From assembly GCA_949127695.1 (NCBI GenBank), contig CASBQH010000077.1, positions 1-22,066 of the forward strand: DNA of 22,066 nt, given 5' to 3'. A program made the position numbers and the translations under genes. Below are positions 1,098 to 6,571 of this stretch, piece after piece. The notes beneath the pieces were generated by a model, which did no database searches, had not been told where the DNA came from, and worked only from the letters and a program-made list of their open reading frames with translations. Each line of letters starts with the position of its first letter. Position 1 is the stretch's first letter. Source of the stretch: Synechococcales cyanobacterium PMM_0073. GTDB taxonomy: Bacteria > Cyanobacteriota > Cyanobacteriia > Elainellales > Elainellaceae.

Positions 1098-1331
1098 TTA
1101 GCGATTAGAGCTATCAGGAAGATTCGCCTGCTCTGATCGGTGACGGCGGCAGCGCTCGGAGCAGTATTTGACTTCCTCCCAGCAGTCTTCCCACTTTTTC
1201 CGCCAGCTAAAGGGACGTTCACAGACAGGGCAAACCTTCGTGGGCAGATCAGACTTGGAGCGAACTCGACCCGCACGGCTCGCCTCAGGGTTTGCCCCTT
1301 GCTGTTTTGATCGAGACCGTGGCATAGTCAC
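1098..1331 (-). CDS. DUF2256 small zinc-binding protein
   Basis: A 77-residue basic protein of the DUF2256 family. The core reads [17 protein letters not shown] near residues 33-49, followed by [13 protein letters not shown]. The Cys-x2-Cys and Cys-x3-Cys pairs can form one zinc site, and the conserved RPFSWRKKW block is the family signature. The biochemical role is unknown; small Cys4 proteins of this sort often bind nucleic acid or a protein partner, which is inference here. Two ATG codons are possible, at 1331 (MTMPRSR) and 1325 (MPRSR); the upstream one is given. It diverges from the trmJ-like gene across a 91-bp region with a phased repeat array, so the two may share regulation. Confidence 0.85.
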
Positions 1332-1346
1332 CTGAACTCTTAATAA

Positions 1347-1389
1347 TGAGATTTACTGAGATTTACGTTTAGTTACATCTAGTTACATC
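1347..1389 (+). promoter_or_regulatory. Four TTAC cores at 10-bp intervals: candidate RpaB/HLR1 array
   Basis: TTAC occurs at 1353, 1363, 1373 and 1383, exactly one helical turn apart, always preceded by T or G. The right half reads GTTACATC-TA-GTTACATC (1372-1389), which fits the cyanobacterial HLR1 element (two G/T-TTACA-W-W octamers with a 2-bp spacer) except for the last base of each octamer. The left half, TGAGATTTAC twice, is more diverged. HLR1 is the site of the OmpR-type regulator RpaB, which controls light-stress and photosystem genes. The array lies between divergent DUF2256 and trmJ starts and abuts a TATATT hexamer. The match is seen directly; binding by RpaB is inferred. Confidence 0.6.
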
Positions 1390-1396
1390 CTATATT
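1368..1396 (+). promoter_or_regulatory. Candidate promoter for the trmJ-like gene
   Basis: A TATATT -10 hexamer at 1391-1396 has a weak TTTAGT at 1368-1373 with a 17-bp spacer. Transcription would begin near 1403, giving a leader of about 20 bases before the ATG at 1423. The phased repeat array covers the whole -35 side, so a protein bound there would compete with polymerase. Confidence 0.4.
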
Positions 1397-1422: not shown

Positions 1423-2244
1423 ATGAGTGAAGCAATCATTGAGCCACCCGGAGCCGCCGCGATTCGGGTGGTGCTGGTTGAGCCTGCCGGAGCGCTCAAC
1501 GTGGGTTCTGTGGCGCGCGTGCTCAAAAATATGGGGCTGAAGCAGCTGGTGCTGGTCAATCCGCAGTGCGATCCGCTCAGCATCGAAGCCCGCCAGATGG
1601 CCATGCATGCGATCGATCTGCTGGAGTCGGCTCAGCAGGTCGAGACGCTCTCAGAAGCGCTGGCGGGCTGTCAGATTGCCGTAGCCACAACCGGGCTGGA
1701 TCATTCGGCACTGGAGGTGAAGCTAGAGCCGCCGCGCAAGGTGCTGCCCTGGCTGGTGGCCTCTCAGCTCCAGGCCGCGCTAATTTTTGGCCGCGAAGAT
1801 CGGGGGCTGACCAAATCTGAGCTGAGCTATGCCCAGCGCTGGATGCGGATTCCGACTAGCCCTGACTATGGCTCGCTGAATCTGGCGCAGGCGGTGGCAA
1901 TCTGCTGCTATGAGCTGTCTCAGGTCTGGCAGTCTAATCAGGTCGTGAATCAGACTGTGGATCAGGTTGTTGAGCCAGTCAGTGACGTAAGCAATGAAGT
2001 CGCAAGTAATGAAGTCGCAGCCGCCGACCGAGCTACGCTGGATGCGCTAGAGGGCTATTATCAGCAGCTCGAAGCCTTTTTGCTGCGAATTGGCTATCTT
2101 TATCCGCATACCGCGCCGAGCCGGATGGAAAAATTTCGGCTGCTGTTTGGGCGCGCCCAGATGTCTGAGGCTGAAGTAGCGCTCTGCCGAGGCATTTTGA
2201 CTCAGGCCAACTGGGCGCTAGGCCAAGCATGGAGCTTGAAGTAA
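1423..2244 (+). CDS. trmJ: TrmJ-family SPOUT RNA 2'-O-methyltransferase
   Basis: A 273-residue SpoU/TrmH superfamily methyltransferase closest to TrmJ, which uses S-adenosylmethionine to 2'-O-methylate position 32 of tRNAs in E. coli. Visible signatures are the N-terminal LVEPAGALNVGSVARVLKNMG (residues 18-38), where the Asn-x-Gly-x3-Arg motif carries the catalytic Arg31, then IFGREDRGLT (121-130) and IPTSPDYGSLNLAQAVAI (143-160), the three SPOUT motifs forming the knotted cofactor site. After the catalytic domain, residues 170-202 form a Val/Asn/Glu-rich linker containing a 15-bp tandem duplication, followed by the C-terminal helical segment typical of TrmJ (LEAFLLRIGYL). The ATG at 1423 follows a short leader without a strong Shine-Dalgarno sequence. 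The target nucleotide in this organism is inferred from the family. Confidence 0.88.
   Translation: MSEAIIEPPGAAAIRVVLVEPAGALNVGSVARVLKNMGLKQLVLVNPQCDPLSIEARQMAMHAIDLLESAQQVETLSEALAGCQIAVATTGLDHSALEVKLEPPRKVLPWLVASQLQAALIFGREDRGLTKSELSYAQRWMRIPTSPDYGSLNLAQAVAICCYELSQVWQSNQVVNQTVDQVVEPVSDVSNEVASNEVAAADRATLDALEGYYQQLEAFLLRIGYLYPHTAPSRMEKFRLLFGRAQMSEAEVALCRGILTQANWALGQAWSLK
1990..2019 (+). repeat. 15-bp tandem duplication in trmJ linker
   Basis: AGCAATGAAGTCGCA (1990-2004) is repeated as AGTAATGAAGTCGCA (2005-2019), encoding the doubled SNEVA unit in the linker between the SPOUT domain and the C-terminal helices. The frame is kept. Confidence 0.85.
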
Positions 2245-4714: not shown

Positions 4715-6571
4715 ATGTTGGTTTGTCCGGACTGTCAGTTTGAAAATCCAGATGATCACCGATTTTGTCAAGGCTGCGGTGCCTCTCTGACTGAAAAAAC
4801 CTGCGCGTTTTGCAAAGCGCTCATTTCGTTGAGTTCAGAATATTGTTTACAGTGTGGCGCAGTGACTGGAACAACCTGGAAAGCAATTTTGTCTTCTGCT
4901 AGCAACGAGCCGCTGCCAGCTGCCGATTTGAGTGCATCTTTGAGTGCATCGACCTCAGCGCTGCCGCTGCCGACTGGCAAGTTTTTAGACCCGCAGCAGC
5001 GCTATCAGCTCTTAGATCCGCTGCCGCTGCAAATGGGGCAGCATACTGAGGTTGAGGTGCGTCTGCTCGATCAGCAGCCGTTGCAGACCAGCCGACTGCT
5101 GCAAGGAGATCTGCCGCTGCTGCCCGCAGCCCTGCCCTATTTAACGCTACAGCGCCAGTTTCCGCTGCTGCCCCTGCCCTATCTGCAAGACGCATGGCAG
5201 CAGGAAGATCTGGCAGTGCTGCTGCTAGAAGATCGATCACATCTGCCGCTGCTGCTTGACCTCTGGCCTGATGATGCCATAGAGCCGCTGCAAATTTTGC
5301 ACTGGCTGCACCAGATGGTTGAGCTGTGGGCAGCGCTGGAAATCGAGCATTGCTGTCAGTCTCTGCTGAACTTGAGCAATTTGCTAGTGGATGAAGATCA
5401 TCTGCTTTGCCTCCAGCGCCTCTATCTAGACAGAGCCGATCAGCCCGTTGAGCTATCCCAGCTCGGCGTCCTTTGGCAGCAGCTGTTTCAGCAGTCGCAG
5501 CAGACTCAAAATGCCGAAATTGCGCGGCTCTGCGCTGATTTAGAATCAGGCGTGATTGACTCGCTAGATCAGCTCCGCAGCCAAATCGAAGCGATTGCGA
5601 CAGCTTTGCAGCAGCCCGTTGTTCAGCTCAGCCCAGAGGCAAAGGCCGAAATCACCCAAGATTTATTCAACGCTGAGTCAGGCGGGCTGGCGGCAGCAGA
5701 TGAAGCGGGCAGCGACGACCAGCCGACCGTGGTGCTGGGGATGCGGCTCGTCAGCCTGGAGGATGCTGGACAGACGGATATTGGCCGCCAGCGCAACCAT
5801 AACGAAGACTGCTTCAGCCTCCAGACCGAGCTAAAGAAAACAGAGACGCCTCAGGGGCGAGCGGTTCAGGCTAAGGGGCTGTATATTCTCTGTGACGGCA
5901 TGGGCGGACATGCCGGGGGCGAGGTGGCCAGCGCGCTGGCAGTCGAGACGTTGCAGCAGTATTTTGCCCAGCATTGGCAGGATAAGCTGCCCAGCGAAGC
6001 GCAGATTCGCGCCGCGATCCAGCAGGCCAATCGCGCCATTTTTGACCAAAACCAGCTGAACGCCAGCGCGGGTAGCGGTCGGATGGGCACGACATTGGTG
6101 CTGATGATGGTGCAGGATGCCGAGGCTGTAATTGCCCATGTCGGCGACAGTCGGCTCTACCGGATCAGCCGCAGACGTGGCCTACAGCAGCTCACCACCG
6201 ATCATGAGGTCGGCCAGCGCGAAATTCAGCGCGGGGTAGAGCCCAGCATTGCCTATGCCCGCCCTGATGCCTATCAGCTCACCCAGGCGCTCGGCCCCCG
6301 CGACGAAAATTTTCTCAACCCAGATATCAAGTTTCTGGAGCTGAACGAAGACGGGATTTTGCTGCTCTGTTCCGATGGCCTCTCTGACAATGATCTATTA
6401 GAAGCTCACTGGCAGAGCCATCTAGAACCCATGCTCAGCTCAGCTGTGAACCTAGAGCAGAGCGTGACTGGGCTGATTGAACTGGCCAATCAATACAACG
6501 GGCATGACAATATTACGGCAATTGCTGTGCGGCTGAAGGTGCGCCCCAACCTCGATCAGCTGCCCCGGTAG
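4715..6571 (+). CDS. Zinc-ribbon / kinase-like / PP2C serine-threonine phosphatase
   Basis: A 618-residue cytoplasmic protein with three parts. Residues 1-50 form a double zinc ribbon with four CxxC pairs (Cys4/7, 18/21, 30/33, 44/47). Residues about 90-300 are rich in Leu, Gln and Pro; their layout, ending in LLNLSNLLVDEDHLLCLQRL and a following helix-rich segment, resembles a degenerate protein kinase lobe without catalytic residues (my inference). Residues 345-607 are a complete PP2C/PPM phosphatase: RNHNEDCF (360-367), CDGMGGHAGGE (393-403), GTT (458-460), GDSRLYR (477-483), CSDGLSD (552-558) and GHDNIT (596-601). The aspartates and glycines that hold the two Mn/Mg ions are present, so it should dephosphorylate Ser/Thr phosphoproteins. 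PP2C enzymes in bacteria usually counter Hanks-type kinases; no kinase gene is nearby. The start is supported by the GAGGGAG at 4701-4707. Confidence 0.9.
   Translation: MLVCPDCQFENPDDHRFCQGCGASLTEKTCAFCKALISLSSEYCLQCGAVTGTTWKAILSSASNEPLPAADLSASLSASTSALPLPTGKFLDPQQRYQLLDPLPLQMGQHTEVEVRLLDQQPLQTSRLLQGDLPLLPAALPYLTLQRQFPLLPLPYLQDAWQQEDLAVLLLEDRSHLPLLLDLWPDDAIEPLQILHWLHQMVELWAALEIEHCCQSLLNLSNLLVDEDHLLCLQRLYLDRADQPVELSQLGVLWQQLFQQSQQTQNAEIARLCADLESGVIDSLDQLRSQIEAIATALQQPVVQLSPEAKAEITQDLFNAESGGLAAADEAGSDDQPTVVLGMRLVSLEDAGQTDIGRQRNHNEDCFSLQTELKKTETPQGRAVQAKGLYILCDGMGGHAGGEVASALAVETLQQYFAQHWQDKLPSEAQIRAAIQQANRAIFDQNQLNASAGSGRMGTTLVLMMVQDAEAVIAHVGDSRLYRISRRRGLQQLTTDHEVGQREIQRGVEPSIAYARPDAYQLTQALGPRDENFLNPDIKFLELNEDGILLLCSDGLSDNDLLEAHWQSHLEPMLSSAVNLEQSVTGLIELANQYNGHDNITAIAVRLKVRPNLDQLPR
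4927..4950 (+). repeat. 12-bp tandem duplication (LSAS doubled)
   Basis: TTTGAGTGCATC occurs identically at 4927-4938 and 4939-4950, encoding the repeated LSAS in the linker between the zinc ribbons and the middle domain of the PP2C protein. Confidence 0.9.

Follow-up and report, generated by a model that had tools for sequence, protein, structure and literature searches.

Phased TTAC words between a DUF2256 gene and trmJ of a cyanobacterium: probably a young tandem array with an imperfect HLR1-like site

The spacer between a DUF2256 gene and the divergent trmJ gene of a Synechococcales cyanobacterium holds four TTAC words at strict 10-bp spacing. We consider it fairly probable that this array is specific to its lineage, arose from two slippage duplications and carries, as it stands, an HLR1-like site with two mismatches. 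It is probably a young quirk of the sequence and at most a weak candidate for a switch. We would not class it as an HLR1 element, since the strict consensus of that element and the conservation to be expected of an established target were both tested and not found. That RpaB could bind the array in vitro is plausible. The features concerned are the following, in coordinates of the window, i.e., the whole stretch of 22,066 nucleotides that was analysed.

1098 to 1325, minus strand: DUF2256 gene (PF10013), 75 amino acids plus stop, divergent from trmJ
1347 to 1366, plus strand: left perfect tandem duplication, two copies of TGAGATTTAC (Tandem Repeats Finder, period 10)
1353 to 1386, plus strand: four TTAC words at 10-bp spacing (motif search)
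1370 to 1389, plus strand: right perfect tandem duplication, two copies of TAGTTACATC (Tandem Repeats Finder, period 10)
1372 to 1389, plus strand: HLR1-like pair GTTACATC-TA-GTTACATC, deviating from the consensus at two positions, namely position 8 of each octamer
1391 to 1396, plus strand: TATATT, putative −10 box of trmJ without a good −35 (by eye)
1423 to 2244, plus strand: gene of a TrmJ/YjtD-family RNA methyltransferase, 273 amino acids (PF00588, TIGR00050)

The array lies within a 97-bp spacer (1326-1422), from which the DUF2256 gene is read on the minus and trmJ on the plus strand. The spacer has a GC content of 35%, as compared to 56% in the whole window. The latter constitutes contig 77 of a 3.6-Mb assembly that is 77.75% complete and split into 529 contigs. 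The DUF2256 protein scores 78.9 bits with PF10013 (cut-off 25); its search against the NCBIfam profiles gave no match. The methyltransferase reaches 110.8 bits with PF00588 (cut-off 29.7) and 214.9 bits with TIGR00050 (cut-off 167.15); with the narrower TrmJ model NF011694 it scores 145.1, which is under the cut-off of 280. A promoter scan of the spacer did not call TATATT and gave another weak candidate at 1319-1347.

The original prediction had placed TTAC at 1353, 1363, 1373 and 1383, in exact 10-bp steps, and the sequence as well as a motif search agree. Tandem Repeats Finder recovered the two perfect 10-bp tandem duplications that had been claimed, a consensus scan bore out that the right pair has the HLR1 layout apart from the final C of each octamer, and the TATATT said to adjoin this pair is indeed present. 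Relative to shuffled sequence the array is non-random: TTAC-N6-TTAC starts three times in the window (1353, 1363 and 1373), as against a mean of 0.09 and a maximum of 1 in 100 dinucleotide shuffles. Since both outer TTAC pairs are by-products of the duplications, only the common word and the common register are left to explain.

Most simply, two neighbouring 10-bp stretches of the AT-rich divergent spacer would each have been doubled once by replication slippage, which we infer as the cause. With TTAC in each unit and a register common to both arrays, four TTAC at 10 bp would result, and the right array would thereby have gained its HLR1-like site beside the TATATT box. Both 10-bp duplications are perfect head-to-tail copies, the mark of a slippage array, and similar arrays with other units are found at the same locus in relatives. 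Perfect tandem duplications with a period of 7-15 occur in nine of the 49 distinct DUF2256-trmJ spacers, the window included, while 0.43 were expected from shuffles. The duplicated units mostly differ among these nine; one is common to L028 and L029. The spacer of Pegethrix bostrychoides has a tandem duplication of its own, TGATTGATGATTGAT, and in that of L100 GTTACATCC is repeated at 9 bp. The whole window (1-22066) contains 17 perfect tandem duplications of this period range, the mean of 20 shuffles being 2.3. In its perfect head-to-tail copying the array thus resembles the other cyanobacterial spacer duplications at this locus; it differs from them in having two arrays side by side with a common word and register.

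Slippage alone does not account for TTAC in one register in both units. In a simulation of two neighbouring 10-bp duplications set 3 bp apart, some 4-mer or other became four-fold phased in 2.2% of the trials, TTAC/GTAA in 0.03%. The latter figure is the best argument for a function, yet it is weakened, since the word was picked after it had been seen.

As a class, phased TTAC arrays are not enriched. In 36 genomes of the family, 48 triples of phased TTAC face 63 of the backwards control CATT; quadruples occur in 16 of 291 genomes of the class and in 15 for the control, with 31 matches each, as counted among the matches listed. About ten of the 16 genomes with a TTAC quadruple show, by reading, plain or near-plain 10-bp tandem repeats. 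Linkers identical in at least five of six positions were seen in nine of the 48 TTAC triples and in 29 of the 63 control triples. TTAC triples are therefore less often full repeats, and the TTAC set includes relatively more arrays of another kind, which tells against slippage as the source of all of them. This is as expected if some of them, such as the one before sds (see below), are real sites.

HLR1, the element bound by RpaB, has the consensus KTTACAWW-N2-KTTACAWW, as given in PMC13421787 and likewise in PMC11633204. The right pair of the array (1372-1389) matches 14 of the 16 specified positions. It shares with HLR1 the TTAC cores 10 bp apart, the G before and the A and T after each TTAC, the 2 bp between the octamers and an adjoining TATA-like box. 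It differs from it by a C instead of A or T at position 8 of both octamers, and the array as a whole differs by its four TTAC words made of two perfect duplications. The overlapping pair at 1362-1379 likewise has two mismatches. The strict two-octamer pattern is therefore absent from the array, and an exact match is obtained once position 8 is left free.

How much such a match is worth depends on what else the genome offers. With position 8 free, the 3.6-Mb assembly contains just three matches, among them the right pair, and the control yields one. At up to two mismatches, 58 matches in the own genome stand against 39 in the control (all tiers), which is a mild excess; many of these matches must therefore be due to chance. 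The two-mismatch tier, to which the site of the window belongs, makes up 49 of the 58. Among the 21 of its 49 rows that were examined, two are the window itself and two lie inside frames of more than 150 codons (L174, L186). This tier is a mixture that cannot be separated. The reduced pattern KTTAC-N5-KTTAC occurs 20 times in the own genome and 25 times in the control. The near-exact site of a psb34-like locus (L304) also deviates from the consensus at position 8, and to judge by it this position may be lenient.

A working, young RpaB operator is the reading with which ours has to be compared. The duplications would have multiplied a half-site, RpaB would repress or tune trmJ and possibly the DUF2256 gene in low light, and high light would relieve the repression. 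We hold this for a tentative possibility. The 14 matching positions, the rarity of the match with position 8 free and the possible leniency of that position speak for it; the deviation of both octamers from the strict consensus and the membership in a tier so rich in matches speak against it. Its sharper version is doubtful: that slippage has just made four half-sites in one lineage, so that the RNA methyltransferase and a small zinc-ribbon-like protein are light-controlled there only.

According to PMC13421787, the position of HLR1 decides between activation and repression by RpaB. The ranges that we applied, counted from the transcription start, are about −66 to −45 for activation and −38 to +23 for repression. 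If TATATT is the −10 box, we infer a start of trmJ transcription near 1403, which would put the HLR1-like pair at about −31 to −14 and the left pair at about −56 to −37. Provided that the array is functional, RpaB, which belongs to the OmpR family and acts on direct repeats, would then occupy the stretch directly preceding the putative −10 box of trmJ. It would act mainly as a repressor to be relieved in high light, about −31 to −14 being within the repression range. The array would also stand just upstream of the position required for a DUF2256 promoter, so that a single protein bound there could affect the two genes.

RpaB is encoded in the same genome (L192; 396.4 bits with NF045944, cut-off 330), which is a further likeness to the known system and favours the operator; the HLR1 idea is reasonable in this organism. 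HLR1 is matched exactly or with a single mismatch at nine sites of the assembly. Of the four sites not listed here, one (L161) falls within a long reading frame; the five near photosynthesis or quinone genes are these.

Phytoene desaturase: site 46 bp away; the gene is cut by the contig end
psaA: site some 400 bp away, allowing for the extended frame; a gene fragment is in the locus
Solanesyl-diphosphate synthase (sds): site 22 bp away; the family is named via the homologue P0001, 84% identical
ABC1/UbiB-like gene: site 194 bp away; above the cut-off of PF03109, below that of the UbiB model
Psb35-related gene: site 151 bp away; another frame is closer on the other side

PMC13421787 lists two of these genes, psaA and crtP/pds, as targets of RpaB. 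In the family, HLR1-like sites or TTAC triples precede ABC1/UbiB-like genes (L166, tested by profile; L138 and L139, by eye), and one family locus (L145) has a TTAC triple or HLR1-like site before a gene which we take to be menA-like.

The array might also serve another OmpR-family regulator of one-turn direct repeats, e.g., RpaA, which appears quite unlikely to us. Head-to-tail repeats are typical of OmpR-family sites, and candidates abound: the assembly yields 14 Trans_reg_C matches, 13 of them above cut-off, and L193, by its sequence presumably RpaA-like, scores 221.1 with the RpaB model, under its cut-off of 330. For such a regulator, however, the array is equally unconserved in relatives. 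An NtcA site, the consensus of which is GTA-N8-TAC, was not seen by eye on either strand of the array. Pho-type boxes have a spacing of 11 bp and misfit the 10-bp array.

From 54 psb34 matches 30 were taken; eight could not be aligned, 14 were below 55% identity, and eight, out of ten at that level, had at least 64%. Among these last eight psb34-like loci HLR1 is exact in five, has one mismatch in one (L304) and is absent within 200 bp in two (L302, L303). A third phased TTAC is present in two of the eight (L298, L305), and multiple phasing at plausible RpaB promoters counts in favour of the operator. Three of the 14 loci below 55% identity have HLR1 with two mismatches (L315, L316, L320). The only psb34-like gene of the own genome (L309, 46% identity) has four mismatches in its best match. 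psaD counts among the RpaB targets named for model strains. None of 30 family loci (out of 33 genomes with a match) has an HLR1 upstream of it with fewer than two mismatches; the best plus-strand match has three mismatches or fewer in only five of the 30, and two further loci reach three on the other strand. With such poor matches psaD was dropped as a positive control, and psb34 and sds were used. The absence of HLR1 at L302, L303, L309 and psaD means that the RpaB regulon is not simply transferable, and it weighs against an operator in the window. Many psaD promoters of the family have in common a near-palindromic ACTGTTACAGT-like word about 75-105 bp upstream (L266-L295).

The sds promoter is more rewarding. 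TTAC-N6-TTAC before sds is kept, with conserved linkers, in 29 of 30 family loci (L328-L357; sampled out of 36 genomes); it follows that a conserved site would have been detected. In most of them the pair is GTTACGAAATTTTACAT and sits between the start codon and a TAGAAT/TAAAAT-like box. In the own genome it is found on contig 426 at 4930-4947 (L337). Three phased TTAC occur in four and four in one (L335) of the 30 loci; here, too, multiple phasing favours the operator reading of the window. The window array resembles the sds arrays in its 10-bp TTAC spacing, up to four per locus, and in its closeness to a start codon. In contrast to the conserved sds pair, it is unique, with linkers that have been duplicated. 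By its sequence, the sds pair is a good candidate for an RpaB target in plastoquinone synthesis, better than the window array.

The literature searched, mostly open-access papers, yielded nothing on RpaB together with solanesyl, and no link of RpaB to trmJ or DUF2256 either. The latter sets the window apart from known HLR1 sites and tells against the operator. RpaB and a tRNA methyltransferase co-occur in a proteomics paper. The word "methyltransferase" is absent from the main text of PMC5785211 on RpaB targets.

The conservation of the array was examined in 110 trmJ loci, 30 from 57 genomes with a match and 80 of 101 tblastn matches. Removal of 12 with identical upstream DNA left 98, of which 49 have a divergent DUF2256 gene by tblastn. 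In at least 49 of the 98 distinct cyanobacterial upstream regions compared (L001-L110), DUF2256 and trmJ thus adjoin each other in divergent orientation. Among the 49 distinct DUF2256-trmJ spacers, only that of the window has a 10-bp-phased TTAC pair; the other 48 lack it on both strands. Upkeep before orthologues is expected of an established RpaB target, although it does not strictly define one, and its lack in the relatives compared separates the array from HLR1 and argues against the operator. The closest relative compared is P. bostrychoides GSE-TBD4-15B, the TrmJ of which is 75% (tblastn) or 82% (HMMER alignment) identical; plus-strand TTAC is absent from the 300 bp upstream of its trmJ. 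An alignment of five spacers from the same genus shows no conserved block across the array. The nearest spacer compared (L002/L031) has diverged so far that neither duplicated unit can be recognised in it, even as a single copy.

The check that had been proposed, 10-bp-phased TTAC in close relatives, has accordingly turned out negative in 48 spacers including that of P. bostrychoides, the nearest relative having about 75% TrmJ identity. What stands of the original HLR1 reading is the near-match pair, the RpaB gene and the HLR1-like sites near psaA and phytoene desaturase; its conservation does not. The conservation test is real but not final, because even the nearest relative reaches just 75% TrmJ identity by tblastn; at this distance a recent selected site is indistinguishable from a neutral one. 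In the spacers of L016 and L097, a site of different sequence comes within two mismatches of HLR1 on one of the strands, and L087, one of the 98 trmJ regions and without DUF2256, has a GTAA-N6-GTAA pair. By eye, L097, L100 and L108 have in common a word resembling TYACATYTTGTAYYATT close to the start of DUF2256, and the spacer of about 405 bp in Microcoleus vaginatus (L108) is filled by an inverted-repeat element, GGAACAGGCA...TGCCTGTTCC, in multiple copies.

That the array acts via DNA shape, phased T-runs slightly curving the divergent promoter without any protein site, is very improbable. The spacer is AT-rich, and short T-runs recur at 10 bp. These runs, however, comprise only two or three T, and curvature usually requires longer tracts; nor is the array conserved in the 48 other spacers.

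If the array is a product of slippage only, it cautions against taking four TTAC words in 10-bp phase, by themselves, for an operator, because such quadruples are no commoner than the backwards control in 291 cyanobacterial genomes. If RpaB does use the array, it would exemplify how a regulator acquires a target when a half-site is duplicated, and RNA modification would be tied to light. The by-product of this work outweighs the array itself: a conserved pair before sds, the gene for the side chain of plastoquinone.
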